A DNA stretch of 64,000 nucleotides from Bythopirellula goksoeyrii (lineage in GTDB: Bacteria > Planctomycetota > Planctomycetia > Pirellulales > Lacipirellulaceae). This document shows, piece by piece, positions 4,305 through 52,602 of this stretch. The stretch spans positions 3,755,658-3,819,657 of the forward strand of contig NZ_CP042913.1 in assembly GCF_008065115.1 (NCBI RefSeq). Direction: 5' to 3'. Under the pieces are notes generated by a model. That model worked only from the letters and a program-made list of their open reading frames with translations, made no database searches and was not told the origin of the DNA. Every line of letters begins with the position of its first letter. Position 1 is the first letter of the stretch. A program made the translations under genes and the position numbers.

Positions 4305-5783
4305 TTATGGCGGTGGCAGGCGGATTGTTTCCAAGGAGGGATCAATTTCCTCTGGAACTTGCTTTTGCTCTAGGTTGGGTGCTGGTAGATCGGGAACGGC
4401 AATATTCTCCATGGTCGCAGGAAGTTGACCACCAATAACCCGTTCCAGTTCGGCGAGCGTCTGGCGTAACGATGCTTCGAGTCGAAAATAGCTAAGTTCA
4501 AATCGTAACAACTCTCGGAAGTTGTCAATCAATTGCAGAAAATCCACTTGACCTACGGAGTACGCACTACTGGAAACCTCATACGTTTGTCTTGATTTGG
4601 GCAATATGTCTTCTCGCAATAGCATTAGCATGTCTTGTTGGCTCTGTGCTTGGGCAAACAGGTCGGCCACTTGTTCTAGTGTCCCATCTTTTAGTGCGTC
4701 GTATTCACGTGCTGTCGCAACAGCTTGGGCTTCAATCGATTTCACAGAGGAATCAATTCGCTTACGGTAAAGAGGAACATTGATTCCCGCTGTGATCAGC
4801 ACTGCATCATCTCCGTTCCTGATGGGACTGATTCCAGAATTGGATACATCAATCCAGGTCGCTCCCAAAGTAAGGTCCGGAACGTAATCGAGTCGGGCCA
4901 ATTGCGCTTTTTGGCGATCACGCGAAAGTGCGGCCAATTGGGCATGTAGTTCTGGTCGAGCGGTGACAGCCCGTTCTTCGAGGCGAGCCAAATCGTCTGG
5001 TGCCTGTTCGGGCGAAAGTTTGTCAACAGCACGTAGTTTCGTTTGTGGCGAGACATGCAGTACACGGGCAAGTCTCGCTTGGGCACTGGCGAGCTGTTGC
5101 CGAAATCGGATCAATTCATTGTCCGTATTAGAAAGCTCCACTTCAGCACGAAGTACATCCTGTTGGCTGGTGAGCGTAGCCTTGTAGCGAGCGTTCGCAG
5201 CATCACGGATTCTTGCCAATTCTTGCTGCTCGATTTTGGTTACGTCGATAGCTTGCTGGATAAAATACAGTTCATAGTACGCATTGCGCACCTTCTGGAT
5301 TGTTGCCAATTCGACGGCTGCCAGTTGGGCACGAGCCACGTTCGTGTGAGATTCGGCAGCGCTGGAAGCAGTCTGCAACTTCTTATAGAAAGGCAACTTC
5401 TGGCTGAGGGAGAGCGAGAGTTCCTGGTTTCCGGCCGCAGTTTGCACAGGCGCAGGGAACGAAGTGACCCCCAGCATAGGGTCTGGCAGGCTCGCTGCCA
5501 CGGGGACCTGATGGGCCGCCGCGTCGATCCGCTTTCGAGCCGCTTGCACTTCTGGATTCTGGTCGAGGGCAATTTGTATAAGCCAATCGACTTCTTGTGG
5601 TCCTTCCAAGTCGGGCGCGATAGGAGCGACCGCCATAGCTGCAGGTACAGGGGAATAGTTCGCCTGCTGAACAGATTGAATGACCTGTGCATACTCACGA
5701 TCACGCATCTGACGCGTAGAGCGACACCCGCACGTGGCGAGACACGCGACAACAAATAGCAGTATTGTTCGACGATCGGCCAT
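4305..5783 (-). CDS. cusC: CusC/TolC-family outer-membrane efflux lipoprotein
   Basis: A 492-residue protein starting with a lipoprotein signal peptide (LFVVACLATCGC). Long amphipathic helical repeats of the outer-membrane efflux protein family follow (QNPEVQAARKRIDAAAHQ; LARVLHVSPQTKLR; a second half with AQAVATAREYDALKDG and VGQVDFLQLIDNFRELL). The length fits the family. TolC-type trimers form the outer-membrane channel of tripartite RND pumps. It is downstream of cusB, cusA and the TRASH-like protein on the same strand, so it very likely completes this pump. A second, distinct member of the family lies at 18863-20296. The C-terminal tail is Pro-rich and probably disordered. Confidence 0.85.
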   Translation of the reverse strand: MADRRTILLFVVACLATCGCRSTRQMRDREYAQVIQSVQQANYSPVPAAMAVAPIAPDLEGPQEVDWLIQIALDQNPEVQAARKRIDAAAHQVPVAASLPDPMLGVTSFPAPVQTAAGNQELSLSLSQKLPFYKKLQTASSAAESHTNVARAQLAAVELATIQKVRNAYYELYFIQQAIDVTKIEQQELARIRDAANARYKATLTSQQDVLRAEVELSNTDNELIRFRQQLASAQARLARVLHVSPQTKLRAVDKLSPEQAPDDLARLEERAVTARPELHAQLAALSRDRQKAQLARLDYVPDLTLGATWIDVSNSGISPIRNGDDAVLITAGINVPLYRKRIDSSVKSIEAQAVATAREYDALKDGTLEQVADLFAQAQSQQDMLMLLREDILPKSRQTYEVSSSAYSVGQVDFLQLIDNFRELLRFELSYFRLEASLRQTLAELERVIGGQLPATMENIAVPDLPAPNLEQKQVPEEIDPSLETIRLPPP

Positions 5784-6030: not shown

Positions 6031-6513
6031 CTAACGGCGATTCTGTGTCTGCAGATAGGCGGTATAGTACGCGTCTACTTGTGCAACAGCAGCCTCCGGA
6101 TTCGCATTGATTTTCTTAATGCACGGAGGACAGCAAACGTAAATAATTTCTCCCTGGGCCACCGTCCACTTGGCACCCGTGGCGGGCAAGTTTTTCTTCA
6201 TAATTGGACATTTCCCTTGGGCTTTGGCAATGTTGGCATGAATCGCAGCCCAGTGTTGCGGGTCGATCTTGCCTTTCGCACAGCCCGCACAACAAAGAAA
6301 GACTTCCTCCTGTGCCTCCCCGATGGCAACCTTGACGGGACTCCCCATTGAACCCAGCTTCTCTCCCGATACAGGGCAGATCTCCTGAACGGCGATTCGC
6401 AATTGGTCATGCTGAGAAAACTCCGTAGAAGGCTGAGCACTTTCTTGCCCCCAGGTAGTGTGGTTTATACCGGCCGCAACAACAAACACAGTCATCAAAG
6501 TAAGTTTCTTCAT
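6031..6513 (-). CDS. Exported TRASH/YHS-like heavy-metal-binding protein
   Basis: The start is placed at the ATG at 6513 because AGGAGAA sits about seven bases upstream and the encoded protein then begins with a good signal peptide (MKKLTLMTVFVVAAG). The mature part has two Cys-pair modules. The first reads CPVSGEKLGSMGSP followed by VFLCCAGC. The second reads KCPIMKKNL followed by IYVCCPPC. This CP...CCxxC layout is that of TRASH/YHS-type treble-clef metal-binding domains. The first module closely resembles one at the C-terminus of the neighbouring CusB, so both probably bind the same metal. It sits between cusA and cusC and is likely a periplasmic metal chaperone for the pump. Confidence 0.75.
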   Translation of the reverse strand: MKKLTLMTVFVVAAGINHTTWGQESAQPSTEFSQHDQLRIAVQEICPVSGEKLGSMGSPVKVAIGEAQEEVFLCCAGCAKGKIDPQHWAAIHANIAKAQGKCPIMKKNLPATGAKWTVAQGEIIYVCCPPCIKKINANPEAAVAQVDAYYTAYLQTQNRR

Positions 6514-6606
6514 TTCATTTCTCCTTCTACACAACTAAATCCCTTAAAGAAACACAGCACCTTAGCGGCGTCTTCCATCAGGACAAAAAAACATCTTTCA
6601 AAACCC

Positions 6607-9600
6607 TTATGCGGCTGACGAAGCCGTCAGTGGAATTTCTCCCTCTTCCTCTTCGTTCCAATATTCGTCCCCCATACCAGCGCGCATCTTGAACTCCACG
6701 TAAGCACAGTACAGAGTTGGTACAATGAAGGTGGTAAATGGTTCGACGAGCATGCCTCCGAAGACCGGCAAAGCCATTGCCCTCGCCACGTCCGCCCCTC
6801 GTCCAGTCGACAGCAACACCGGCACTAAGGCCATGATCGTGGTAATCGTGGTCATCATACACGGTCGAATCCGCTTAAGTCCGGCTTCGTAGATGGCAAG
6901 TCGAATGTCGTCTACATTGCGAATGGTGCGACGTTTGAGTGTATCACGCATGTAGGTTGCCATCACAATTCCGTCGTCGGCTGCCAAACCAAACAACGCG
7001 ATAAAGCCAACCCACATGGCTGTATTCATCTCGACACCCATAATGGCCGCCGCGATCATGCCTCCGGCAGCAGCAAAGGGAATACCTGAGAAAACGATCA
7101 AAGAGATGGGAAAGTTTCGGAAATGAAGGTAGTGTAATAACAAATTGATGAGAATCACTGTGGGCACAATCCACATTAATCGTTGGTTAGCCTCGATCTG
7201 ATTTTGGAATGAGCCAACCGCTTGCATTTCAAAGTTGCCTTTTGGAAATGTCAGTCCGCCACTTTCACGAGCATCTCTCAAGGATTCCATGACACCCTCT
7301 ACAGTCTCCAAATCACCCTTGGCACCCGAAGGGGAAAACATCACATGTGCAACTAGTCGTGAATCCTCACTGTTAATCATTCCAGGTCCCCAAGTAGTCG
7401 TCACAGTCGCTAGTCGCTCTAGGGGCACAACATCACCGGTATGAGTGACGACTGGAGCCTTACGCAATTCATCGAGCTGCTCTCGCAGGTTGCGTTCATA
7501 ACGAACTTGAATTGGGTAGCGTTCCCGACCTTGCACCGTCTTGGTGACATCCACCCCCCCGAGACCTGCTGAGACAATCTGATTAACCATCATGGTTGAC
7601 ATGCCGTAACGAGCCGCCTCTTCGCGGTCGATCTCGAATTCGTAATAGGGTTTCCCCATGACGACATCAGGGTTGACGGTGCCAGCGTTAACCAAATAGT
7701 TCTCCTTGAGTTGGTTAGCAACTGCTAAGGCTGCTTCACCCAAACCTTTGAGGTTATCCCCATAGATCCGCACTGCCATGGACGCCTTAATACCACTTTG
7801 CAGCATCACCACACGTCCTTCGATAGGCTGGAGTGGTGAAGCGGGAGTCACACCGGGCAGTGTTGCCACGGCATTGATTTCATCCCAAATCTTTCGCTCA
7901 GTCATCCCTTCCCGCCACTGGTCCCGAGGCTTGAGCATCACATAGGTTTCAACCATCGCCGCCGGGGCCGGGTCGAGTGCCGAATCAACACGGCCAATCT
8001 TGCCCATCACATTCTCTACTTCAGGAATTGCTTTAATGAGCACATCCTGAGTTTGCAGAACTTCCATCGCCTGAGAAAAACTTGCCGCAGGATAGAGGCT
8101 TGGCATGTAGAACCAGCTTCCTTCGTCCAGCGCGATCCAATCGTCCGATTTTAGTCCTGTAAACGTGTGTTTGGCAGTGACGTAGCCAGGGACTTCGTTG
8201 AGGTCTGCCCCCAGCATGGCACACACCTTCTCGAAAGGACGCAGTACGGTTGGCAGCCCAATCCAGGCTCCCAGCCCAAGTATGAAGATCAGTATGGGAA
8301 ACGACATCATCAAGGCTTTGCGACGCAATGCCAAACGCAATCTGCCTGCGTAAAGCCATAAGACAAAGCGGCTGACCGGGTTCTCCTCCATGTGTCGGAT
8401 TTTCTCACTGCTCATCCACCATCCTGCTAAGGCTCCGAATAGAGCAGCTATGGCCGTTGCCCACGCTAGACTCAAAGTCGTCCATGCGGAGAGATGGTCA
8501 CCCCAGACGAAATGGCAGAGACCGCCACTCAGGGCTGCGCCTCCCAATGCCGCCCCTAGACTTGACCACCGAGAGGACTTTGAGGTTTTCAAAAAAATGC
8601 GGCAGAGCATTGGTACGACTACCACCGCCACGATCAAGCTTGAAATGAGTGCAAATGATTTCGTCCAGGCCAAGGGTGAAAACAAGCGGTGGTCACGACC
8701 AGTAAGAAAAAACACCGGAAGAAAACTCACGATGGTCGTGCTCACTGCGGTAATCACGGCGGGAACGACTTCAGCGGCACCATCCCGAATAATTGTCACG
8801 CGTCTGCGCTCACCTCCCGGCGAGCCCGCTGCCTGCCAATCGGCCAAGTGACCATAGATGTTTTCCAAGACGATAATTCCCATATCGACCATCGTGCCGA
8901 TGGCAATGGCAATGCCAGCGAGCGACATAATGTTGGCGTCTATGCCAAAGAACTTCATCGCGATGAACGCCATCAAGACGGCCATAGGCAGAGTGACGGA
9001 GATGACGATACTAGCGCGCACGTGCAATAAGAACAGTACCATCACGGCAATCGTGATCAACGTTTCATGCACTAATGCATTAGACAGTGTGGCGACCGTT
9101 TCCTGAATTAGCATCGTACGGTCGTAGACTGCCTTGATCTTGATGCCGTCCAACTCAGGCTCTAGCGAGGCGATCTTTTCCTTAACCCGTTCAATGACCT
9201 CCCGGGGATTCTCACCAAAACGCATCACCACGACACCGCCAACCACCTCTTCGCCATTGAAATCGAGTGCTCCACGGCGAAACGCAGGACCCGTTTGCAC
9301 CTGGGCAATATCGCGGACCCGGATTGGCACGCCCTCACGTGTCATCACTACCGTTTTCTCGATCTGCTCGATCGCCTCGGCCTCGGTCTTGCCCGAACCG
9401 ATAAAGCCCTTTCCCCGGACGATAAATTCCATTCCACTCGATTCGACCGTCTTGGCGCCGACATCGATATTCGATGCTTTTACGGCCTCAAGCACCTGGC
9501 TGAGCGGGATCTTGTGATAACGGAGTGCGTCGGGATCCACTTCTACCTGGTATTGCCGGACGTAGCCGCCAATCGAGGCAACTTCTGCTACTCCGTCGAC

Positions 9601-10107
9601 CGATTGCAAGGCATATTTGATGAAAAAGTCCTGTCTGGAGCGCAGCTCTGCCAAATCCATGCCTGCGGGTGGCTGAAGTACGTAATAGTAAATCTGGCCT
9701 AGTGCCGTTGCGTCAGGACCAAGTTGCGGGGTCACCCCTTCGGGCATTTTGCCAGTGATCGTCGACAATTGCTCCGCGACCCGAGAACGAGCCCAATAGA
9801 AATCGACACTGTCGTCAAACGTCACTTGTACGAAGCTGAAGCCAAACATACTCTTGCCACGCACACTTTTGGCACCGGGCACTGCTTGCAGGGCCACGGA
9901 GAGTGGATAAGTAACTTGGTCTTCGACATCTTTCGGCGAACGTCCCATCCATTCCGACAACACGATGACTTGGTTTTCGCTTACGTTGGGAATGGCGTCG
10001 ATGGGAACCTTTTTGGTGGAGTACCATCCGTAAGCCACGATGCCAACGCATGCCAAGAGAACGACCAATCGCTCACGAATACAAAAATCGAGCAAACTCT
10101 TTATCAT
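6607..10107 (-). CDS. cusA: CusA-type heavy-metal RND efflux pump, inner-membrane subunit
   Basis: A 1166-residue protein of the HME-RND family, slightly longer than the usual 1030-1050 residues. It opens with MIKSLLDFCIRERLVVLL and KVPIDAIPNVSENQVIVLSEW, typical of CusA/CzcA. It carries the proton-relay helix AIAIGTMVDMGIIVLENIY, the two porter-domain halves and a C-terminal helix bundle (FIALFGLAADDGIVMATYM). The pump uses the proton gradient to drive copper or silver from periplasm or membrane through the outer-membrane channel. Its ATG overlaps the stop of cusB (ATGA), so it is translationally coupled. Cu/Ag rather than Zn/Co specificity is inferred from CsoR, Csp and multicopper oxidase neighbours. 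An insertion of about 80 hydrophobic residues near residues 505-580 explains part of the extra length. Confidence 0.92.
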   Translation of the reverse strand: MIKSLLDFCIRERLVVLLACVGIVAYGWYSTKKVPIDAIPNVSENQVIVLSEWMGRSPKDVEDQVTYPLSVALQAVPGAKSVRGKSMFGFSFVQVTFDDSVDFYWARSRVAEQLSTITGKMPEGVTPQLGPDATALGQIYYYVLQPPAGMDLAELRSRQDFFIKYALQSVDGVAEVASIGGYVRQYQVEVDPDALRYHKIPLSQVLEAVKASNIDVGAKTVESSGMEFIVRGKGFIGSGKTEAEAIEQIEKTVVMTREGVPIRVRDIAQVQTGPAFRRGALDFNGEEVVGGVVVMRFGENPREVIERVKEKIASLEPELDGIKIKAVYDRTMLIQETVATLSNALVHETLITIAVMVLFLLHVRASIVISVTLPMAVLMAFIAMKFFGIDANIMSLAGIAIAIGTMVDMGIIVLENIYGHLADWQAAGSPGGERRRVTIIRDGAAEVVPAVITAVSTTIVSFLPVFFLTGRDHRLFSPLAWTKSFALISSLIVAVVVVPMLCRIFLKTSKSSRWSSLGAALGGAALSGGLCHFVWGDHLSAWTTLSLAWATAIAALFGALAGWWMSSEKIRHMEENPVSRFVLWLYAGRLRLALRRKALMMSFPILIFILGLGAWIGLPTVLRPFEKVCAMLGADLNEVPGYVTAKHTFTGLKSDDWIALDEGSWFYMPSLYPAASFSQAMEVLQTQDVLIKAIPEVENVMGKIGRVDSALDPAPAAMVETYVMLKPRDQWREGMTERKIWDEINAVATLPGVTPASPLQPIEGRVVMLQSGIKASMAVRIYGDNLKGLGEAALAVANQLKENYLVNAGTVNPDVVMGKPYYEFEIDREEAARYGMSTMMVNQIVSAGLGGVDVTKTVQGRERYPIQVRYERNLREQLDELRKAPVVTHTGDVVPLERLATVTTTWGPGMINSEDSRLVAHVMFSPSGAKGDLETVEGVMESLRDARESGGLTFPKGNFEMQAVGSFQNQIEANQRLMWIVPTVILINLLLHYLHFRNFPISLIVFSGIPFAAAGGMIAAAIMGVEMNTAMWVGFIALFGLAADDGIVMATYMRDTLKRRTIRNVDDIRLAIYEAGLKRIRPCMMTTITTIMALVPVLLSTGRGADVARAMALPVFGGMLVEPFTTFIVPTLYCAYVEFKMRAGMGDEYWNEEEEGEIPLTASSAA

Positions 10108-12026
10108 CGTACAACCTCCAGTTCGGTTTTCTCGACAGACGATTCCGAAGATGGTTCAGAGATGATAATTTCCATCGCACCAATTTCCGGCAGATCGCTT
10201 TCTCCTTCTCCACTGGAGTTTGACACCACTCCTTTCGATAGCATGGCTAGATACTTGGTTGATTCTTCCATGAGAACTTCGCGGCACCCTTCACAACAGA
10301 GGAAAACTGTCCGACCCTCAACTTCAACTTTGGGCGGAACTCCCATCGACCCCAGGGGGTACATGGTTACAGGGCAAACGCTTTGTTCCTCGGCAAGTTT
10401 TCGGTCAGCAGCACTTAGCATAGCTAGTGCGGACTCGATCTCAGCGGACTCGGTATCCACGACTCCGTGCATTCCCTTCGTTGGATCAATCAAAGACGGG
10501 TTGCCCGCCAATTGCATTTGCGAGTCAATCAGAAAGTTCCCTGAGGTGGCAACTAGATCTCCCTCTTCCAGTCCATCGAGGACTCCCACTTGATCCGCGT
10601 TCACCATGCCGACGGTTACGTGACGAATCTCGAATCTTCCGGGTTCGGTTTCTACATAGACGACACTATGACCGCCGTTCATCAAAACAGCGCTTCTTGG
10701 AATCACTAGGCATTGATCCATGGCAACGGGCTTGTCGGTAAATCCGAAGTCAGCAGCAGGCACTAGGTCTATTCCGCAGACCGGACATTGTCCCGGTGAT
10801 GAGCGCACGATCTGGGGATGACGCGGACTTATCCATTGTCCCGCCAGTTCCGGATCATAGATTTGCCACGAATCTCGCTCGGCAACTGCCAAGGGCGCAC
10901 GGATTGTGGCCTTCGCGTAATCGCCGACACGCAATAAGCCATTGGGATTCGGTACCGCAACACGGACGCCCACCGTTCTTTTCATCGGATCCACAGTCGG
11001 GTCGATGAAGGCGACTCGACCAGAAATAGTCTTGCCTGGTAACGATTGCACCTCGGCTTCCACCTTCTGACCGTAGTGAATTGTTGCTGCATCCTCTGGA
11101 AATAGCTCCAGCATCAACCACACTGTCGAAAGGTCGGCCAGTTGATATATCACTTGGCCCTCTTTCACGTATTGTCCCTCCACGGCAAGTTTCTCGATCA
11201 CTGTCCCACTGATCGGAGCACAAAGGTGCATACGACTATTCGCTTCTCCTTGCTCCTCTAATTGTGCAATCTGAGGCTCAGTCATGCCCAGCTCGATTAG
11301 TCGCTGTTTAGCACTCTTGTAGAGATTAGAGCTACTCTCCACTACACGCTGCAGCGACGATGATTGGCTATTTCCGTGGGCTTTCTTCGACAGCAGGTAC
11401 TCCACCTGGGCGGAGAAGAGCTTAGGTGAGTAAACCAATGCGAGGTGGTCACCTTTCTCGACAACGACTCCGGTGTAATCGGCGTAGAGTTTTTCTAGCC
11501 GTCCGTCGACGTAAGCGGAGAGTGTCTTGAGCGAACCCTCGTCATAGCTCAGTTCACCGATAGCGCGAATCGTTCTTTCCAGTGACATCCTTTTGGTGGC
11601 AGCCGTGCGAATGTTTGCTATCCTGCGGGCTACCGGGTCAAGCTGCACGGATCGTGAGTCGCTTGGTCCATTCCCCGAAGCAGCCGGCACCAACTCCATC
11701 GCACAGACTGGGCAGCGCCCTGGCTCGGCCTGCGGAGGAGTACACATCATCGGACAGATATAGCGAGTATTCGAGGCTTCAGTCGCTGCGACGTGTGTCG
11801 CTCCACCCCCACCAGAAGATACCCAGCCCAACTTTTGAGCTACGCCGAGACCAATGATCAATATTGCGCCAGCGCCCAACAAGAGCAGTGGCTGGACCAA
11901 TAGTTTGATCCATGAGTACTGGGACTCAGATTGTAATCCAGTTGCTTGCGCCTCGACAGCATTCGGGACTGTTTGAGGCGTATGTTCTTCTGGAATTGTT
12001 GGAAGTTCATTATTTGCTTCGGACAT
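10104..12026 (-). CDS. cusB: CusB-type periplasmic adaptor with three metal-binding modules
   Basis: The start is set at the ATG at 12026, where GAGG lies just upstream, rather than six codons earlier. About residues 40-63 form a membrane anchor. A heavy-metal-binding domain follows (CPMMC...GRCPVCAMELVP, Cys 91, 95, 105, 108), then the barrel-sandwich/lipoyl and beta-barrel domains of membrane fusion proteins. A second CPVCGIDLVP module lies around residue 420, and a TRASH/YHS-like tail (CPVTMYPLGSMG...VFLCCEGC) near residue 560. Adaptors bridge CusA and CusC and in Cus systems hand metal to the pump. At 640 residues it is much longer than E. coli CusB (about 400), because of the extra metal modules. 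Overlaps cusA by four bases. Confidence 0.9.
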   Translation of the reverse strand: MSEANNELPTIPEEHTPQTVPNAVEAQATGLQSESQYSWIKLLVQPLLLLGAGAILIIGLGVAQKLGWVSSGGGGATHVAATEASNTRYICPMMCTPPQAEPGRCPVCAMELVPAASGNGPSDSRSVQLDPVARRIANIRTAATKRMSLERTIRAIGELSYDEGSLKTLSAYVDGRLEKLYADYTGVVVEKGDHLALVYSPKLFSAQVEYLLSKKAHGNSQSSSLQRVVESSSNLYKSAKQRLIELGMTEPQIAQLEEQGEANSRMHLCAPISGTVIEKLAVEGQYVKEGQVIYQLADLSTVWLMLELFPEDAATIHYGQKVEAEVQSLPGKTISGRVAFIDPTVDPMKRTVGVRVAVPNPNGLLRVGDYAKATIRAPLAVAERDSWQIYDPELAGQWISPRHPQIVRSSPGQCPVCGIDLVPAADFGFTDKPVAMDQCLVIPRSAVLMNGGHSVVYVETEPGRFEIRHVTVGMVNADQVGVLDGLEEGDLVATSGNFLIDSQMQLAGNPSLIDPTKGMHGVVDTESAEIESALAMLSAADRKLAEEQSVCPVTMYPLGSMGVPPKVEVEGRTVFLCCEGCREVLMEESTKYLAMLSKGVVSNSSGEGESDLPEIGAMEIIISEPSSESSVEKTELEVVR

Positions 12027-12093
12027 AAATACCTCGCTATACAACTTTCTCGTATGCGTTGGGTGTGTTGATGGTGTGACTTAGTTTGTCTTG

Positions 12094-12465
12094 TTAGTGA
12101 CAACATCCTGAGCTACAGCCCGATGAACGTGATGTCGATCCGCTGGTTCTAGTTGCAGGTTCATAGCTGCTCCGGCTCGCCTTATCATTGGTAGAGGCCG
12201 TCAAATACTCAGCGGGATCGTCCTTGGAGTAATAACCATGAAGTGGATCAGTCGATGCAATTTTTGCATTAGAATTTTCCACAGCTTGCGTGACGGAATT
12301 CGCGGCAACCGACAACGGGGGAGTTGTTGCCGGTACTGACGCAGAAGTTGCTACTGTCGATGCCCGACGCCTACCTGGAACAAATCGGCTTGCCGTCTGG
12401 CAACCAGCCGTGAGCGACCCCAAGATTACTACCACAAATAACCAACGATACTTGCTATTGCACAT
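12094..12465 (-). CDS. Small lipoprotein with Cys-rich C-terminal tail
   Basis: A 123-residue protein with an N-terminal lipoprotein signal (LFVVVILGSLTAGC). A Ser/Thr/Ala-rich low-complexity body follows, ending in SSGCSSGCCH. AGGTGATC upstream of the ATG supports the start. The terminal Cys-Cys-His cluster suggests a tethered metal-binding tip. It is the nearest gene upstream of cusB on the same strand (about 70 bases) and could share its transcript. No family recognised; the periplasmic metal-binding role is inferred from composition and neighbours. Confidence 0.65.
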   Translation of the reverse strand: MCNSKYRWLFVVVILGSLTAGCQTASRFVPGRRRASTVATSASVPATTPPLSVAANSVTQAVENSNAKIASTDPLHGYYSKDDPAEYLTASTNDKASRSSYEPATRTSGSTSRSSGCSSGCCH

Positions 12466-12708
12466 TTGATCACCTCGATTCCTTTCGAGTCACGAAAATG
12501 GTTTATCCCTTAGCCATACCGTCCTACGAACAGTACTTGTTGAAAATTAAGTTGGGCGCTCAATATCCAGCTAAACAACGCCAAGGAGATATTACAGACC
12601 ACATAACTAGGTCCCGCTTGTTTTTCACAATGCGAAACTCGTAATCAGCTAGAAATGCGCGCAGCTAGCACGAAAGGAACGGCGCGCAGTGGTGCTGAAG
12701 AATTCGGT

Positions 12709-13260
12709 TCAGATTGTGAACCGACAGAGGGTGATGCAGCGATCAAGAGAAGTTAGTGATTCTGATCCGACAGTCACACTTAGAGATTGATGTGTCGGAC
12801 AAGGCTGGTAAATCGTTGCGAGAGAAGCTAGTACAGTAGCATCCGCAATGATCCTCTCTGGTGAGTTATTCTCGACAGGAGGACAGACTGGTTCAGTTGG
12901 GGCGTTATTCTTGCCGCACTGGCAATTAGCGCCGCACGAACAATTCCCATCCGCACAGCAGGGGCAAGTGCCACCTGAACAACAGCTATGACGTTCCGGG
13001 CTTACACTGCAACAAGTGCGACTCTGCTGTTTGCAGGAACTGTCTTCACCACAATGGCAGACCTTAGCCCCAGTACAAGGACAACGACCCGATTCTGCTT
13101 GAGAGTCAGTACAGCAACAACCCTCTGAAGATTCAATCTTCGTAGGACTGTGTGACACCTTCGAACACTCGCAAGCAACCGTCGGCACACCCTGCATGGG
13201 AATTGCTATGGCTGCTAGCCAGATAAGGATGCGAGCGGCGATGTGTTGAGTAATGCACAC
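12709..13260 (-). CDS. Exported metallothionein-like cysteine-rich protein
   Basis: A GTG at 13260 with AGGA nine bases upstream is the best start. It gives a signal-anchor-like hydrophobic N-terminus (ILIWLAAIAIPMQG). The next 80 residues hold about twenty cysteines in CC, CXC and CXCC patterns (GCCCTDS, RCPCTGAKVCHCGEDSSC, HSCCSGGTCPCCADGNCSC, NCQCGKN). The C-terminal third is ordinary sequence with a few more Cys. The pattern resembles metallothioneins, but classical bacterial metallothioneins are cytosolic and about 55 residues long; this one is about three times longer and apparently exported. Placement between the csoR/csp genes and the cus operon argues for copper or silver sequestration in the periplasm. 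Confidence 0.7.
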   Translation of the reverse strand: MCITQHIAARILIWLAAIAIPMQGVPTVACECSKVSHSPTKIESSEGCCCTDSQAESGRCPCTGAKVCHCGEDSSCKQQSRTCCSVSPERHSCCSGGTCPCCADGNCSCGANCQCGKNNAPTEPVCPPVENNSPERIIADATVLASLATIYQPCPTHQSLSVTVGSESLTSLDRCITLCRFTI

Positions 13261-13782
13261 GTTGAACAATCCTAATAGTTGCCGCCCTCATCGACGGACA
13301 AAACCTTCCTCACTCATTTCTTCGACAGGCACGGAGACCAATCTGAAGAACAAACTAGCGAAATAGCAGGCCTCGTAGCCCCTAACTCCTTTATCCTTGC
13401 AAACTTAAGCTGTGAAAGGTCCACAAAACCCGAGGAGAGGTCAAGGGCAAACCTTGCTAGCTCTCTGTAATGATGGCATCCCGGACTATGCTGTCAAGAT
13501 AAGTGACCTTACCCCCGGGTCAGAAAAAGCCCCTGTGAAACTTGTCTTAGACTGTCACAGACCCCAAAAAATGGATAGCGCGATCCCATTCTGCCTCACC
13601 TACAGGATAGCAGTTTTTGACCGGTCAAAAACAGGAACTCCACAAACCAGAACCCTTGAGGAGGAGATCGATCGCTGCAAGTGGCCATAGGAGACTCGGT
13701 TCACCAATAGTGAATAGCTTCATGAGCCGAGAATCGACTCAAGAAAGATGTTGGTTTGATTGCTCTGCTGATACCACGCTAC
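13261..13782. other. Intergenic upstream of the metallothionein-like gene
   Basis: About 520 bases between the metallothionein-like gene and the 3' end of csoR. No supported coding frame. It must hold the promoter of the minus-strand metallothionein-like gene. The notable element is a perfect 20-bp palindrome, listed separately. Confidence 0.5.
13613..13632. promoter_or_regulatory. Perfect 20-bp palindrome, candidate operator
   Basis: GTTTTTGACCGGTCAAAAAC is a perfect inverted repeat with no spacer. It has no trailing T-run beyond the repeat, so an operator for a dimeric regulator is more likely than a terminator. It lies about 350 bases upstream of the metallothionein-like start and about 150 bases past the csoR stop. 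Which protein would bind is unknown; it does not match the C-rich boxes known for CsoR. Confidence 0.4.
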
Positions 13783-14070
13783 TTAATCGACTATACGAGT
13801 GTACTTTTGAAATATCTTGATTAACTCGTCGATCTCTTGCTTGTGCTTTTTCGAAGTATCGGTTCGTACTACATCCCCCAGGCATGTCTTAACATGGTCT
13901 TCCAGAATGATTTGACCGACTTTATCGAGTGCACCGCTTGCGGCCGCTATTTGCGTGAGGATGTCGACGCAGTAGGCATCCTCGTCGATCATCCTCTCTA
14001 TTGCTGACACTTGCCCAGCAACCCGACGCAGTCGGTTGGAGAGTCTTGATTTTTCTATCTTTGAAAGCAT
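13783..14070 (-). CDS. csoR: CsoR/FrmR-family copper-sensing repressor
   Basis: The ATG at 14070 is preferred because AGGAG lies about nine bases upstream; the frame extends 13 codons further without a good site. The 95-residue all-helical protein shows the DUF156/CsoR fold: KSRLSNRLRRVAGQVSAIERMI, then the Cu(I) ligand set Cys34, His59 and Cys63 (YCVDILTQ; EDHVKTCLGD). CsoR represses copper-resistance genes in the apo state and releases DNA on binding Cu(I). It lies at the junction of the Csp, HMA-MauE and cus genes and is the most likely regulator of the block. Other members of the family sense Ni, sulfide or formaldehyde; the C-H-C triad favours copper. Confidence 0.88.
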   Translation of the reverse strand: MLSKIEKSRLSNRLRRVAGQVSAIERMIDEDAYCVDILTQIAAASGALDKVGQIILEDHVKTCLGDVVRTDTSKKHKQEIDELIKIFQKYTRIVD

Positions 14071-14180: not shown

Positions 14181-14504
14181 CTAAGCAGCCACTGATTGGC
14201 ATGCTTTCGCACACCGGCGGCAACTTTCTGCGCACTTTTTGCAGTGATCATGATCGTGGACCTCACACTGCTCGGCACACCAGTTACACACCTCGGCACA
14301 AAGTCTGCAGATTTGCTGCGAGTATTTGCCATTCATGGCCATAGCATCTGCGCACAATCGGCAGATAGCTGCACATTCCAAGCAACATTTTGGACAGTCG
14401 TTATTGGAATCCTTGTTGAGCATTTCGACCAAGCATTCCAAACAAGTAGCAGCGCACTCGGCACAGGCTTGGATGCAGTCTTTTGATGAACTCGTTGTAG
14501 CCAT
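14181..14504 (-). CDS. csp3: Csp-type four-helix-bundle copper storage protein
   Basis: The ATG at 14504 has GAGGAG eight bases upstream. The 107-residue protein has 21 cysteines spaced as CxxxC and CxxC along helices (CIQACAECAATCLECL; CPKCCLECAAICRLC; CRLCAEVCNWCAEQC; CKKCAESCRRCAKAC). This is the pattern of DUF326/Csp proteins, whose Cys-lined four-helix bundles store many Cu(I) ions. The absence of a signal peptide points to the cytosolic Csp3 type. It lies about 110 bases upstream of csoR on the same strand, consistent with copper-induced expression. The symbol is assigned by pattern and localisation only. Confidence 0.85.
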   Translation of the reverse strand: MATTSSSKDCIQACAECAATCLECLVEMLNKDSNNDCPKCCLECAAICRLCADAMAMNGKYSQQICRLCAEVCNWCAEQCEVHDHDHCKKCAESCRRCAKACQSVAA

Positions 14505-14622
14505 CACAATTCTCCTCATTGAACGGGGTTAGAAAACATACCTAAATCGAAAAAAACTCACGCACATTTTATGCCACTTGGTGATTTCAAAATGCCGAAG
14601 CAATGAACTCTTTATCTCGTTC

Positions 14623-20755: not shown

Positions 20756-21499
20756 TTACTCAATCCACTTCAGGTACTTGTCCATCTCAACAGCCGGGAC
20801 CGTCCCGAGCGGCTGTAGCATTTTGAAAAGTGACATCAAGAAGTACATCAGGCTTGCTTCAGGATCGCTCGTTTCAATCTTTAATCTGCTATTGTCGTTG
20901 ATTACACGAAAGCCACCTTCAGACAAGACGCATCCAAGATGAATTTGTCCATGCTGCTCTGTCCAGCTCTGGTGGATTGCTCGTTCAAACGAATCCCCCA
21001 GCCCAGGATTCCAAGAGGAAGAAAGCGTCAATATCCCCGTGAGGATCTCGAAGAGTTCTTTCCTGGTGGTCCTCCCTGTTTGATCGGTTATCAACGCCGA
21101 AGTGCGTTTCAGCCTTCTGACGGACTGAAACTTCTTCGACGCGTATTCTATGTGTTCTTTCGAAATATCCTGCTTAACCTCGAAGACTGCGTACACGCTT
21201 TCAGCAGGAACGTACACAAGACCTTCATAGTTGATCACAAACGGAGTGTATTGACGATCAAAAACTACAACATCGATCTGTTCGCTTGCTTCGCCGTTGC
21301 TGTCGACGACCATCGCTCGTTCAATGGCATACCGATTCGGGAGGTACTCACGAAGAAGGCTGATCCAAGATGTCTCGGTTGCCTCACCTTTGGTCCCTTG
21401 GTGAACAGCATATTCTCGATTCAACTCCTGAGCTGCCAGCGTTGCTTTCTGACGACTCTTAAAAAGGCCTGACAAATCAACTCTATTCACTTCAGACAT
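20756..21499 (-). CDS. nucC: NucC, CBASS effector endonuclease
   Basis: A 247-residue protein closely resembling the CBASS nuclease NucC from E. coli. It has the conserved HQGTKGEATETSWISLL segment, then the PD-(D/E)XK active site split as IDVVVFDRQYTPF (Asp76) and VYAVFEVKQ (Glu107, Lys109). In known systems cyclic tri-adenylate assembles NucC trimers into hexamers that cut double-stranded DNA throughout the cell, killing it before phage can spread. It starts one base after the cap6 stop (TAA then ATG), with GAGG inside the end of cap6, and is the last gene of the operon. All catalytic residues are present, so it should be active. The C-terminal GTVPAVEMDKYLKWIE matches the family's ending. 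Confidence 0.93.
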   Translation of the reverse strand: MSEVNRVDLSGLFKSRQKATLAAQELNREYAVHQGTKGEATETSWISLLREYLPNRYAIERAMVVDSNGEASEQIDVVVFDRQYTPFVINYEGLVYVPAESVYAVFEVKQDISKEHIEYASKKFQSVRRLKRTSALITDQTGRTTRKELFEILTGILTLSSSWNPGLGDSFERAIHQSWTEQHGQIHLGCVLSEGGFRVINDNSRLKIETSDPEASLMYFLMSLFKMLQPLGTVPAVEMDKYLKWIE

Positions 21500-22423
21500 T
21501 TAGACCTCTGTGAAAGTCGGTGTGGGTTTGATTGTCAATGCGACGCTAGCAATCAGCTCCGCATTGATGCCTTGATTTGGATAGGCAGCTAAGACCACCG
21601 AAGGCACAAGTCGTTGTGTGATATCAGAGAAACTAAAACCTGCACCAACGTCCCTGTTCCCTGTCAATTCAACAATTCGCGTAAGTTCCGACTCGGAGCA
21701 AACATATTCGGGGAATGCATTTCGTAGCACCACGCGTCGTTGCTCCGCATTGGGACGGCTAAATTCAAACGTGGCTGCCGCCCGCCGCATGACAGCAGGA
21801 TCTAAGGCACGAAGTCTATTGGTACACATCACCACCAGAACGGGTCTTCGGCCTTCAGCCAGATCGTCAATCCCCCGAATCAGAGCGTTCACTCCCGCAC
21901 GGTCCTCATGGTGCATCTGCGCTGATTCGCGGGATTGTGCCAGCGCATCTGCTTCGTCAATTAAAAGGATGTGCCCTGTCGTCGCAGCTTGCCTGTCCGT
22001 AAGACAAGCTGCTTGAGACTTAATCATCGCGAACGCAGCGGAAATCAATCGGGTCATCTCACCGACCGCCCCAGTACCTCGGGCCGTCAAACTTAAACTA
22101 TGTAAGAGAATGGGAATTCCTGCCTTACGCGACACCGCATCACCGAATGTCTCGGCCAACTCGGTCTTTCCTGTTCCAACGTCACCAGCCAAAATAAACA
22201 GTGGGGGTCGGCGTTGAAAGAAACACAGTGCGGGTAGCAAATGGTCAAAATGTCGAAGAGACCACTCTTCCAGTGAAGAGGGTTGAAGTTGCATCATCGC
22301 CTCTTTCACGAGCCGTTCTTTAACCTCGTCGAGTCCCACCAGCCTCTCCAGCCGACGCTTTGTCTCTGGATCAGGAAATTCCGTCACTTCATCAAATATT
22401 CCGTCTGTCGAATGGTTGTTCAT
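21500..22423 (-). CDS. cap6: Cap6, TRIP13/Pch2-like AAA+ ATPase of type III CBASS
   Basis: A 307-residue AAA+ ATPase. Walker A GDVGTGKT spans residues 80-87 and Walker B ILLIDEAD residues 152-159, with sensor and arginine-finger regions around CTNRLRALDPAVMRRAA. In type III CBASS, Cap6 is the bacterial TRIP13: it opens HORMA proteins and so switches off the cyclase until infection. The ATG at 22423 shares its A with the last base of the cap7 stop (TGATG), and AGGAG lies seven bases upstream, so the two genes are translationally coupled. Immediately followed by nucC. No residue essential for ATP hydrolysis appears to be missing. Confidence 0.92.
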   Translation of the reverse strand: MNNHSTDGIFDEVTEFPDPETKRRLERLVGLDEVKERLVKEAMMQLQPSSLEEWSLRHFDHLLPALCFFQRRPPLFILAGDVGTGKTELAETFGDAVSRKAGIPILLHSLSLTARGTGAVGEMTRLISAAFAMIKSQAACLTDRQAATTGHILLIDEADALAQSRESAQMHHEDRAGVNALIRGIDDLAEGRRPVLVVMCTNRLRALDPAVMRRAAATFEFSRPNAEQRRVVLRNAFPEYVCSESELTRIVELTGNRDVGAGFSFSDITQRLVPSVVLAAYPNQGINAELIASVALTIKPTPTFTEV

Positions 22424-22935
22424 CAATAGCTCCTAAATGACCGTCGGGAGACCTCAGTCCCACCCGCCGAGTAATTCTTCTCAGTTCCCGTCCAATAGCC
22501 CACACCATCGGCTGGTGGATCCCCTGGCGTCCGATTGATAGGATGAGTCCCTTTGAAAGTCGCCTGTTGATCGGAGTTCATGCCATGATACTTGCCGGAG
22601 TACCAAACGTAGTTGAAAAACGTTGTACCACTTAGATCAACGTATGCAGACATCTTCCCTGCGCGGTCATCCGTTTCGATATTCCCAGCAGGCGTGATAT
22701 CGTAGGACCAGCTCAGCACACGTTTGTCGTCACATTTGAAACCGAATTCGTAGCGACTAAGGTAGCCGTTCCGCAACAACTCAATCAGCTCTTCGTTGTA
22801 AGATTTGACCGAGGAAATCGCGGGCTGACCATGAAGACGGCTGCAGGCGTTCAAATCAGCGGCAATCTTCGAAGCTAGATGCTTTGCGTGTGTGACGGTG
22901 AATGTGGATGATTGGGTATAGGTGTAAGTAGACAT
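22423..22935 (-). CDS. cap7: Cap7, bacterial HORMA-domain protein of type III CBASS
   Basis: A 170-residue protein beginning MSTYTYTQSSTFTVTHAK, the typical opening of the bacterial HORMA family 1 (the Ser/Thr-rich strand then THAKHLASKIAADLN). HORMA proteins sense infection by closing around a peptide; the closed form binds and activates the CD-NTase. The flexible Pro/Gly-rich C-terminal part (GTHPINRTPGDPPADG) fits the mobile safety-belt region. It starts two bases after the cdnC stop with AAGG upstream, and its stop overlaps cap6. Only one HORMA gene is present, as in the E. coli MS115-1 arrangement, rather than the two-HORMA variant (Cap7 plus Cap8). Confidence 0.9.
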   Translation of the reverse strand: MSTYTYTQSSTFTVTHAKHLASKIAADLNACSRLHGQPAISSVKSYNEELIELLRNGYLSRYEFGFKCDDKRVLSWSYDITPAGNIETDDRAGKMSAYVDLSGTTFFNYVWYSGKYHGMNSDQQATFKGTHPINRTPGDPPADGVGYWTGTEKNYSAGGTEVSRRSFRSY

Positions 22936-22937
22936 AT

Positions 22938-23912
22938 TTATACCTTAAATGTCGGGCCAAAAACTTCCTTCCAGCACTCCACCGCGCGTCCCTTTGTGGT
23001 GGCATGCCGAGCCTCCGAAATTGCATCGAGGGCTTCCTCTGCTTGCTCAACTAATCTTGCTCGGTCGTTCGTCGTGTAATCGGCGACGATACTGTTATCG
23101 AGATTCACTGGATCGAGCACTTCGATCGGATTCTGACCTCGCCTGGGGATCTCACTGGCTCTGAAGAAATCTGTGAAAGCAATTTGATCAGCCAGCTGAC
23201 TCTTCACTATGTAGGCGAAGAACTCTTCAAGAGCGTCTGGGTAGTTGGAAAAAACTGCCCCGGAATCCAATTGACTAGCCATTACCAGTTCCAGCAGATA
23301 CGACTTGCAACGAAATGACGGTCCAATCGCAGCCTTTCGCTTGGACGACCAGAATTTGGCGAAGCGAATCATTTGGGCGTAGTGATTCTCGCAAGTACGC
23401 TTTCGTGTTCTGATGAACTCCAAGTGCATTGGGATACTGGTCAGCACTCGCTGACCTGAATCGCTGGCGTACAAGTAGCCCCGGTCAAGTGGGTCATCCT
23501 TGATTTCGTAGATTGGCACGACGTCAACATCAAGGCCACTCCCCCGAAATGAAATGCGGACACAGTGATTGCCGCGACTGATCTGGTCCGCGTTCATGTT
23601 TGGATAGACCTTGCGAAGCTCCTCGATCAGCCAGTCAAGTAGGTCCGCCTCCCCAGTAGGCGCGTCAGGTGAAGTCACATGCACTGCAACGTCGATGTCG
23701 TTGAGCGACTTCAGAGCGGTTCCCTTGGCAAGACTGCCGGAAAGCAGCATCTTTCTGAGGCCGACATCCGGATTCTCAGCAATGAATCCCTCCAACATGC
23801 TGCGGAGCCGGTTAACTTGGTCACGATATTCCTTGGCATCCTCTCGCTTGAGATTCACCGAACTATCAGCAAAGGAAACAAGATCTGTGTGTTTTATGAA
23901 TTGATCACGCAT
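22938..23912 (-). CDS. cdnC: CdnC, CD-NTase cyclic-oligonucleotide synthase of CBASS
   Basis: The ATG at 23912 (MRDQFIKHTD) is preferred. AGGA lies six bases upstream and the resulting N-terminus matches the length of known CdnC proteins; the frame continues 22 codons upstream to a TTG. It has the nucleotidyltransferase signature LLSGSLAKGT...LNDIDVAV (Gly59-Ser60, Asp72, Asp74) and a later acidic pair in SFRGSGLDVDVVP (Asp128, Asp130). The later SNYPDALEEFFAYIV and EVLDPVNLDNSIV blocks and the C-terminal WKEVFGPTF agree with the CdnC clade. Such enzymes make cyclic tri-adenylate when bound by a closed HORMA partner and DNA. First gene of the cdnC-cap7-cap6-nucC operon. The active site looks intact. 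Confidence 0.93.
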   Translation of the reverse strand: MRDQFIKHTDLVSFADSSVNLKREDAKEYRDQVNRLRSMLEGFIAENPDVGLRKMLLSGSLAKGTALKSLNDIDVAVHVTSPDAPTGEADLLDWLIEELRKVYPNMNADQISRGNHCVRISFRGSGLDVDVVPIYEIKDDPLDRGYLYASDSGQRVLTSIPMHLEFIRTRKRTCENHYAQMIRFAKFWSSKRKAAIGPSFRCKSYLLELVMASQLDSGAVFSNYPDALEEFFAYIVKSQLADQIAFTDFFRASEIPRRGQNPIEVLDPVNLDNSIVADYTTNDRARLVEQAEEALDAISEARHATTKGRAVECWKEVFGPTFKV

Positions 23913-24105
23913 TTGCATTCCTGTCATAAACGACCGCAGGACCACGATGTGGACGACTTTTGCATCAAACGGTGCCAACTAGTCCGCCGTTTTCCCAATT
24001 TAGGAAGGAGTATACGCCCCGCAATGGACGATGTAAATACTTACTCTTGTAAAATAGTCCACTTTCTGAGATAATTCAATAACACGCAAATGGGGAGGAT
24101 TTCAC
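23913..24105. promoter_or_regulatory. Shared divergent promoter region of CBASS and IetAS
   Basis: About 190 bases separate the start of cdnC (minus) from the start of the AAA ATPase gene (plus), so promoters for both defence operons must lie here. The right half is A+T-rich (around 24030-24085). GGGAGGA at 24093-24099 is the ribosome-binding site of the plus-strand gene. No convincing operator palindrome was seen. Confidence 0.5.
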
Positions 24106-28682: not shown

Positions 28683-29711
28683 TCAAATCTGAATCTTTTC
28701 AATTTCATCGAGGCTGATTGTGTCTGAAGTGCGGTCATAGAGTTTGGTGCTTCGTACCGATTCATGGGCAGCAATTCGCTGGGCGTGTTCCAGTAGTCCA
28801 CCCCCTTGCAAATAGGCTGTGATTCCCGTTGCCCGGAATGTATGACAACAGACTCGCGAAGAGAGTCCAACTTGACGAGCGCGCCGCTTGATCATGCGGA
28901 GCACATCGACACGGTGCATTCGGCATGTCGTCAGATTACTCCAGCTATCAACTGTGCGAAACAGGGGACCTTGAGCCTCGTCACAGATACCAGCCCGCTG
29001 TAAATAAGCATCGACGTATTCTTCGGCATTATGGTGGACAGGGACTTCATGGTGCTTGCCCCCTTTTTCGTGTAGGCGAAACCACATGCGTCTTCCTTGC
29101 GAAAAGTAATCACCCACATTCATACCGACGGCAGCTGAAACGCGTGCAAAGCTATAAACCAGCACACCGATCAGGGCCCGGTCTCGAACCCCAGTAATCG
29201 TTCGTAGATCGATGCCATCCAGCAACAGTCGAGCTTCTTCTGCTGTAAGGACTGGAGTTTTTCCTTTTTTCACAACATGCTTGGGTCCTCTCACTGATGC
29301 GGCTGGATTCACCGGGACGACCTGTCCTGTGACAAGGTAATCGAATAGGGATCGAATTGCTGCTAAATGAAGTTTTACTGTGGAAGGACTCAACTCCTGC
29401 ATAAGTTGTTCGATATAACTGGCAACTGCGAACGGTGAGATTTGAGCCAACTCAATCTGGTATTGATCACACCAAGCGAAGAAACGTCCTGCAGCACGGG
29501 CATAGGCATCGCGAGTTCCACGATTACGAATTCGCGCCGCGAAGAACTCTAAGAATCTATTGCAAGAGTCGCTGCCTGCTCGTTCAATGAGCGATGGAAG
29601 CAAGCCTACCGAGATAGCGACTGGTACATATTCTACCTGAGTTATAATTGCGGGAACGTTCTTCATCGATAAAAGTATGATGGCACAGACAGGGAGTTTC
29701 AAAAAGGACAT
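28683..29711 (-). CDS. Tyrosine recombinase / phage-type integrase
   Basis: The catalytic domain shows the family residues in order: Arg in YSFARVSAAVGM, His-x-x-Arg in CCHTFRATGITAYL, His in IAAHESVRSTKLYDR, and Tyr in the same segment (LYDR). An N-terminal SAM-like core-binding domain precedes it (SCNRFLEFFAARIRNRGTRDAYARAAGRF). The start at 29711 (MSFLKLP) is a choice; the frame is open to 29801 and another ATG lies at 29666, none with a clear ribosome-binding site. In this setting it may resolve plasmid dimers or integrate the element; no attachment site was identified. Its composition matches the neighbouring plasmid genes. Confidence 0.87.
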   Translation of the reverse strand: MSFLKLPVCAIILLSMKNVPAIITQVEYVPVAISVGLLPSLIERAGSDSCNRFLEFFAARIRNRGTRDAYARAAGRFFAWCDQYQIELAQISPFAVASYIEQLMQELSPSTVKLHLAAIRSLFDYLVTGQVVPVNPAASVRGPKHVVKKGKTPVLTAEEARLLLDGIDLRTITGVRDRALIGVLVYSFARVSAAVGMNVGDYFSQGRRMWFRLHEKGGKHHEVPVHHNAEEYVDAYLQRAGICDEAQGPLFRTVDSWSNLTTCRMHRVDVLRMIKRRARQVGLSSRVCCHTFRATGITAYLQGGGLLEHAQRIAAHESVRSTKLYDRTSDTISLDEIEKIQI

Positions 29712-29996
29712 TTTGCAACCCCCCCACGTTTTATCCATAGAGGAATAATAGGGGTTACTCTTGCTGCTAATCAGCACTAAGCCCTTTGAATGATTCAACA
29801 ATTCCCTTGGTAGACAGCTCCCAAGCGGAGTCTAAGAGTCGAGGTCCCAGAAACCACTTTCGACTGTCACTGAACTTCCACGACCCTGTTAAGTCGCCAA
29901 GGAACAAGAATAATCTGAAACATCCTCAAGACAGAGTCTAACCGTCTAAGAAAAACAGGGGTGCGTTAGACTTATTTGTCGTGCTACTCTCAAGGC

Positions 29997-52312: not shown

Positions 52313-52602
52313 TTGACAATCTCCTTTGTGGTTATCCAACTGCAGGGTAGCGCAATGTCTCTGCCAATCGAATCATCGAAGTAAATTATGTATTTGACCG
52401 ATGAAATCCGAACGAGGTAGTGGGCTATTTTGGTGCGTTCGGCGTTAAAAGCTGAGGCAGGTTTGAGAGGCTTGTTGTGATTATCTGGCGCGCCCTCACT
52501 TACCTGCTCGCTGATACGATAGACGCCGATAAGTCTGCCACTAACTACCGGGGTTGATCCATCCAGCTGGTGGCGTCTTCCATTTTCCAGGCGGTAAGTC
52601 AT
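52309..52602 (-). CDS. Small protein overlapping the 3' end of the DRT1 gene
   Basis: A 97-residue protein; ATG 52602 has AGGAGG eight bases upstream. The first 62 bases overlap the DRT1 coding region in another frame, and its end overlaps the next gene by four bases. The three genes thus form a tightly coupled operon. The sequence (STPVVSGRLIGVYRISEQVS; LVRISSVKYIIYFDDSIGR) is beta-rich, with no family recognised. A role as a helper or control protein of the reverse transcriptase is inferred from the overlap. Confidence 0.6.
   Translation of the reverse strand: MTYRLENGRRHQLDGSTPVVSGRLIGVYRISEQVSEGAPDNHNKPLKPASAFNAERTKIAHYLVRISSVKYIIYFDDSIGRDIALPCSWITTKEIVK

Follow-up and report, generated by a model that had tools for sequence, protein, structure and literature searches.

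The question raised by this locus is what a cysteine-rich and apparently exported protein does at the head of a copper-efflux gene cluster. The preliminary description had taken it for an exported, metallothionein-like copper buffer, either periplasmic or tethered to the surface, with about twenty cysteines in CC and CxC patterns behind a hydrophobic leader. Within the window (the whole stretch of DNA that was analysed, 64,000 nucleotides) the frame, called the leader ORF here, and its parts are the following:

12709–13260, minus strand: leader ORF, 183 amino acids plus a TGA stop; apparently exported, cysteine-rich, first of the cus cluster.
13171–13260, minus strand: signal-peptide-like leader, codons 1–30, ending TVA/C (the slash marks the putative cleavage site).
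12916–13173, minus strand: cysteine block, codons 30–115, ending CSCGANCQC; its length differs among relatives.
12748–12915, minus strand: linker, codons 116–171, of scant sequence conservation and near-constant length; low-confidence model.
12712–12747, minus strand: conserved C-terminal motif LDRCITLCRFTI, codons 172–183, running up to the stop.

The 183-residue frame was present as first described, and its GTG start at 13260, preceded by AGGA 9 nt upstream, aligned with the start of most relatives, where ATG is usual. Since the frame is conserved in relatives from other genomes, it is not a chance ORF. The hydrophobic leader was also confirmed, with an N-terminal Kyte–Doolittle peak of 2.25 over 13 residues followed by TVA/C; W14 was invariant and P21, C30 and C32 nearly invariant among 22 members. 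Cysteines proved more numerous than had been stated, 26 in all, 25 of them within the 154 residues from position 30, and both kinds of pair were found (7 CxC and 5 CC). These 12 pairs gave P = 0.06 against shuffles of the same composition; the extreme feature of the protein is the number of its cysteines, their clustering being barely above chance given the cysteine content. TVAC is a poor lipobox, and because of this the tethering of the protein as a lipoprotein is not indicated.

The window protein matched no Pfam and no NCBIfam family. When 22 + 44 members were scanned at E values up to 10, single stray matches to unrelated families were obtained, with no DUF2946 and no metallothionein among them. 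The bacterial metallothioneins SmtA/BmtA and MymT are likewise high in cysteine in CC and CxC patterns; they are small and cytosolic, whereas the window protein has a leader, a linker and a conserved C-terminus. Membership of the metallothioneins was rejected, no family model matching the window protein or appearing among the stray matches of its relatives. The copper storage proteins Csp1 and Csp3 (DUF326) are four-helix bundles; the leader protein resembles them in its cysteine richness and in its place at a copper locus, and a DUF326 protein adjoins the cluster at 14181–14519. Membership of this family was rejected too, there being no DUF326 or TIGR04401 match and a low-confidence model without a bundle. 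The AlphaFold model of the window protein had a mean pLDDT of 57.5 and a pTM of 0.21, with helices predicted at this low confidence in the leader and at residues 134–148 and 166–182 (pLDDT 77 around 171–180).

The genes 3′ of the leader ORF, all on the same strand, make up a metal-efflux cluster:

12094–12465, minus strand: small lipoprotein-like ORF, 123 amino acids, with C-terminal GCSSGCCH (a short counterpart at another locus, L028, ends GGGCPSCG).
10104–12044, minus strand: CusB-type periplasmic adaptor with HMBD domains (Pfam/NCBIfam matches).
6607–10107, minus strand: CusA/CzcA-family RND efflux pump (Pfam/NCBIfam matches).
6031–6534, minus strand: small protein, apparently exported, carrying CPVSG..CC..C repeats; several other loci have a relative after CusA.
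4305–5783, minus strand: TolC-like outer-membrane efflux protein.

The lipoprotein-like ORF is possibly a second, tethered metal-binding piece. The protein at 6031–6534, which has no Pfam or NCBIfam match, carries two CP(V/I)..CC..C repeats like the tail of CusB. Upstream of the leader ORF lie genes for a CsoR-type repressor, a DUF326 (Csp-like) protein and an HMA–MauE fusion; the DUF326 protein (14181–14519, minus strand) is cysteine-rich, has no obvious leader and stands beside the CsoR-type repressor. Together with the leader and the cysteine content, these neighbours support the proposed link to copper handling. Elsewhere in the window, genes for a SMODS-type nucleotidyltransferase, a bacterial HORMA protein, an AAA ATPase and a DUF6602 protein follow one another at 20756–23978 (minus strand), a row which has the look of a defence operon of the HORMA/TRIP13-type CBASS kind with DUF6602 as a possible effector. 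A phage-type integrase at 28683–29801 (minus strand) suggests a mobile or acquired stretch nearby, and an unusually long protein of 1265 residues with a reverse-transcriptase domain (RVT_1) is encoded at 52541–56338 (minus strand).

Relatives of the leader protein were found by single-sequence search in 11 of 59 close genomes and in 21 of 396 genomes of the order, its own genome counted. A profile of 22 members matched in 38 of the 396 genomes, one of these matches (G257) being a fragment without the motif, and a wider profile matched in 18 of 392 genomes of the phylum; among the loci read from this last search the C-terminal motif was present in 19/21 and absent in L116 and L125. The reach beyond the phylum was covered by two contig scans and a plasmid search. 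The first contig scan returned no relatives of the leader and the plasmid records no match, while the 242 stretches proposed by the scan with alignment A6 came down to 14 on confirmation, from records under the titles Planctomycetota, Planctomycetaceae, Gimesia or Blastopirellula; the named records with relatives were thus planctomycetes throughout (14 loci). A search of the open-access literature, with preprint servers outside its scope, found this family unnamed in titles and abstract openings among the matches listed.

The 22 single-sequence members were 150–196 residues long, and 5 of 29 more distant members were shorter than 150. What the relatives share is a cysteine block of variable length, a C-terminus that reads [L/F][C/S/G]x[F/W/Y/L]xx-stop, and a near-constant spacing, in most cases 66–70 residues, between the last CxC and the stop; the number and spacing of their cysteines vary freely. 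The organism's own genome contains at least five ORFs with the motif and the distance described below, the one in the window included. The others are:

G000:C1:3751938: further leader ORF, preceding a weak response-regulator-like gene.
G000:C1:3845183 (locus L085): further leader ORF, preceding an HMA/ABC cluster.
G000:C1:5459588: further leader ORF, preceding a gene cluster.
L168:6221-6748: further leader ORF, preceding a second CusBA.

The distance from the last CxC to the stop is 68 residues in the window protein. In the 22 single-sequence members the cysteine block measured between 51 and 98 residues, but all 22 had their last CxC/CC pair 67–70 residues from the stop. With 29 of 30 profile-found ORFs added (the motif-less fragment L098 was dropped and near-duplicates were kept), the last CxC within 50–100 residues of the end lay at 63–71 in 51 of 51 members, with a mean of 67.8 and a standard deviation of 1.6; without the 50–100 bound, L088 and L090 carry a later, extra cysteine pair at 35 and 38. 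The motif-bearing loci of the phylum search gave 64–70 in 19/19. These counts are not independent, because the members are related.

As the profile had been built from tails of such length, a homology-free pattern search was also carried out, in which frames of at least 90 residues with at least 6 cysteines, a CxC and the C-terminal pattern were accepted whatever the distance. Over 68 loci (856 kb) it gave 74 matches, which are not a random sample because most loci had been fetched for holding a leader; 72 lay at 63–72, the other two being L090 (38) and an unrelated frame (25). The reversed sequence of the same 68 loci gave no match, and the window a single one, the leader ORF itself. Admitting Gly at −5 raised the matches to 75, of which 73 lay at 60–75. 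When the C-terminal pattern was dropped, the bin of 65–69 residues held 63 frames, while elsewhere between 20 and 90 the bins held 6–18. A non-redundant set of 19 tails of exactly 68 residues had a linker identity of 12.2% (7.6% in shuffles) and an identity of 46% in the last 12 residues. Given the near-constant spacing, so low an identity and the low-confidence model, it appears to be the length of the linker, and not its sequence, that is kept. Among the pattern-selected leaders a hydropathy of at least 1.5 over 13 residues was reached in 72/74 and of at least 1.8 in 63/74, a measure of hydropathy only.

A CusB gene lies downstream on the same strand for 17 of 21 leader genes examined, with several genes intervening in L036, L037, L039, L040 and L044. 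The other four are the first leader of L038, which has a CusB-like piece at the contig edge, those of L035 and L041, which lie near contig ends, and that of L047, which precedes another gene. A census was also begun from CusB and not from the leader: 53 CusB places were found in 59 genomes, and the best 28 (at least 48% identity) were examined. Of these 28, 26 were preceded on the same strand by a leader, recognised by homology in 10 and by the pattern in 16. At 15 of 18 fetched places a cysteine-rich ORF of the expected pattern was found upstream on the same strand, about 0.75 kb or less from the CusB match and with a spacing of 64–68. The usual ending was LCVWRI or near to it, and L172 had LGVWRI at 66. 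The two places without a leader were L161, where the contig ends about 0.8 kb upstream, and L170, a CusBA locus from which the leader is absent. A cruder choice, taking the most cysteine-dense upstream frame without regard to the pattern, recovered 12 of 16 and took other frames for L164, L165, L172 and L174. The C-terminal motif and the near-constant distance can serve as a search pattern, which found leaders at 16 CusB loci missed by the single-sequence search.

Leaders of this kind are not confined to RND pumps. In L085 the leader heads genes for an HMA protein, a lipoprotein-like protein, a MacB/FtsX permease, an HlyD protein and an ABC ATPase, and several further loci in other genomes have the same gene order and look alike, with similar first residues. 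In L086 a leader stands ahead of a TolC-like gene, and response-regulator matches below the Pfam cut-off follow the leaders of L076, L099 and L160 and the second leader of L086. Because related leaders head both RND and ABC clusters, a partner common to them is likelier to be the ribosome or translocon than a pump.

Conservation at the C-terminus extends to the codons. Leu −6 is encoded by CTC in 49 of 67 cases, whereas elsewhere in these ORFs CTC accounts for 19.9% of 477 Leu codons (formal P 9e-21, uncorrected for kinship). In six of six C-terminal subclasses no codon is more frequent than CTC at this position, although the bias is weak in the small CRY subclass (2/5). The stop codon of the leader is TGA in 53/74, compared with 134/371 in a background of long frames, antisense ones among them. 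Two features of the RNA adjoin this end:

12704–12724, minus strand: 8-bp RNA hairpin spanning the leader stop, −10.5 kcal/mol; its register is the same in most Cus-type members.
12466–12708, minus strand: untranslated stretch of 243 nt that separates the leader stop from the following gene and carries GCGCGC elements close to its beginning.

When the stop-spanning RNA of 46 members was compared with mismatched halves, own halves folded better than in any of 5000 permutations at three of four segment lengths and with p = 0.004 at the fourth, a test uncorrected for kinship. The cells of the hairpin were paired in 76.9%, against 74.3% in shuffles (21/500 as high) and at most 51.7% when the register was slid. 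The fixed-register covariation of 21 aligned sequences was 0.189, against 0.192 in shuffles, of which 277/500 were as high. The ABC-type members shown in the hairpin test are without the 8-bp stop hairpin. A different hairpin, GCAAGC-nnnnn-GCTTGC, directly follows the leader stop in L083, L084, L087, L088, L090 and L094 of the ABC-type group, and some paired changes in it were seen in L092.

The 100 nt past the leader stop contained C, G and A at 0.31, 0.26 and 0.16, compared with 0.27, 0.27 and 0.22 past long frames, and the next start followed at a median of 181 nt (63 of 74 had one within 420 nt). The mean z of about −1 for downstream RNA stability over 51 members gave no clear result. Pairing between the leader end and the next ribosome-binding site, looked for in 37 members, was no better than in mismatched pairs for four of five segments (p 0.28–0.57) and gave p = 0.04 for one. 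Rfam had no match up to E 1 in 12000–13900.

In its anatomy the leader resembles CruR (Bp2923) of Bordetella pertussis, which has a predicted export signal, a Cys motif, the first place in a copper operon, a conserved C-terminal motif at a fixed distance from the cysteines, and an intergenic region of 162 bp, comparable with the median of 181 nt here. In DUF2946 proteins the distance from CXXC to RAPP is kept within 1–2 residues in more than 2000 proteins, and the addition of five residues to CruR strongly reduces the copper response (PMC9426467). CruR is described to arrest ribosomes in vitro (PMC12992588). The likeness stops at the family level, CruR having the DUF2946 domain and the RAPP motif, both absent from the present family, and, as described, only a CXXC. 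From the positions given in PMC9426467 the last Cys of CruR lies 52 residues from the C-terminus, against 68 from the last CxC to the stop here. CruR controls a TonB-dependent transporter that is shut off by copper, and its control is reported to be independent of its signal peptide, cytoplasmic copper sensing being proposed (PMC9426467). CruR homologues (DUF2946) are reported from a few Planctomycetes (PMC9426467). Membership of DUF2946 was rejected for the present family: PF11162 matched 0/22 and 0/44 members at E up to 10. The organism's own genome gave no DUF2946 match at E 0.001, and RAPP, RGPP or RAGP occurred in the last 20 residues of none of the 74 pattern-selected ORFs.

CutF of Rhodobacter capsulatus and the CutF-like proteins have a Sec leader, where the window protein has a leader judged by hydropathy, and share with it a Cys motif (for metal in CutF) and a C-terminal motif; the metal genes that they precede are described as including those of the OEP, ACR_tran and CusB types (PMC9973294). 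Control by CutF requires the Sec leader, the copper motif and the C-terminus, and co-translational export is tied to copper sensing (PMC9973294), an export that is conjectural for the window protein. Its C-terminus by itself is reported not to stall a LepB reporter (PMC9973294). The CutF-like proteins were listed by a length below 150 residues and a PP in the last 15 (PMC9973294), whereas the window protein has 183 residues and no PP; CutF also has a different Cys pattern with a spacing of 45, against 68 here, and both CutF and CruR, as described, rely on two cysteines, against 26 in the window leader. The fixed spacing characteristic of the CruR type is found here (67–70 in 22/22 and 63–71 in 51/51), as is the CutF-type place upstream of a metal gene on the same strand (17/21 leaders and 26/28 census places). 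The leader is thus CruR/CutF-like by anatomy, yet no member of either group, because it lacks both a match to the DUF2946 model and a proline motif. CzcI of Cupriavidus metallidurans, compared by description only, likewise precedes an RND metal pump and is described without a C-terminal proline motif (PMC9973294); it was looked for on pMOL30 and was not identified there. With SecM, TnaC and other arrest peptides the leader has in common conserved C-terminal residues and a possible regulation in cis (PMC9973294 for part of this comparison). No resemblance in sequence to them was noticed by eye, and the ligand proposed here is a metal.

From these features we infer that the leader is probably a member of a new family of nascent-chain metal sensors. 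Since the end residues and the spacing of about 68 are kept while the intervening sequence is almost unrelated, a sensor read during its synthesis is suggested, rather than a metal sponge. On this view the leader ORF would be an upstream frame with a regulatory role, sensing would fall to the chain under synthesis, and the signal peptide of that chain would drive co-translational export. With the ribosome at the last codons (L-C-R-F-x-x-stop), the last CxC would be 68 residues away and the cysteine block would have reached the periplasmic face. For extended chains in microsomes the distance from the P-site to the lumenal side takes about 64 residues (PMC6286305), and the CutF authors allow some 30 residues for the tunnel and 17 for the membrane (PMC9973294). 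On these figures 68 residues would place the last CxC outside the translocon while the motif is still in the ribosome; this meaning of the distance, tunnel plus translocon, is our own, because the CruR and CutF precedents are not fully parallel. If the cysteine block binds copper or another soft metal of the kind, the pull on the chain may be altered, and with it the time for which the ribosome pauses on the stop codon or immediately ahead of it. Such a pause would then change the RNA downstream, that is the stop hairpin in Cus-type operons and the long C-rich untranslated stretch, so that at high metal the efflux genes would be expressed. Once completed, the protein may have a short life, or may bind metal as well; the leader could well do both jobs, as sensor and as metal binder.

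The main rival is a periplasmic metal buffer or chaperone with a CusF-like job, in which the mature protein would bind Cu(I) and pass it to CusB/CusA or to an ABC exporter. Its many cysteines, its hydrophobic leader and the adjoining CusB and CusA genes agree with such a role, as does the finding that none of the nine ORFs scanned in the leader region matches a CusF family. We nevertheless regard it as unlikely, though deserving serious weight: the number and spacing of the cysteines vary freely, and the metallothionein-like form of this explanation is disfavoured because it leaves unexplained the conserved C-terminus, the constant linker length and 68-residue spacing, the Leu codon bias, and the upstream position before unrelated efflux systems, the same tail standing ahead of an ABC exporter. 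An exported metallothionein is accordingly a possible description of the window protein, yet not the best one; of the earlier claim, which is supported in part, export as judged from the sequence, richness in thiols and the link to copper have stood.

A C-terminus common to different operon types, and predicted to end in a helix, might instead be a structural or targeting tail, its 68 residues bound by some shared element of the envelope (protease, Sec component or membrane) with the cysteine block as a metal-loaded head. This seems to us improbable: the linker is 12% identical with a low-confidence prediction, a tether would need no constant length, and the Leu −6 bias would be left unexplained. 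It is more improbable still, to a marked degree, that control is exerted by the RNA only, with the peptide as a by-product of the stop-spanning hairpin and the C-rich untranslated stretch. Both RNA elements are present, but the CxC and the C-terminus are conserved at the amino-acid level despite nucleotide differences, the near-constant length is one counted in residues, and the ABC-type members are without the hairpin. The nascent-chain sensor is the reading that we prefer, and observations tell against it as well, beside the mixed outcome of the RNA tests, the leaderless CusBA locus L170 and the near-chance clustering of the cysteines: the C-terminus resembles no arrest motif known to us and has PP in its last 15 residues in 0/74 cases, 15–26 cysteines are more than a stalling role needs, and the predicted helix at 171–180 leaves room for a function of the tail.

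There is, in our estimate, an even chance that the Planctomycetes possess an undescribed class of nascent-chain metal sensor whose arrest motif at the stop, L-C-R-F or L-C-V-W, has no proline and whose ruler of about 68 residues is set by ribosome plus translocon, the leaders being interchangeable before RND and ABC exporters, with several copies in one genome. The near-constant distance makes a physical prediction that is directly testable through the length of the linker. If the proposal is true, the use of a half-made exported protein as a metal sensor would extend past DUF2946 and past arrest of the proline type, and such sensing would have arisen, or would have diverged until unrecognisable, in a second phylum, where the C-terminal motif differs. 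What annotation would call a metallothionein-like sponge would then be a switch.
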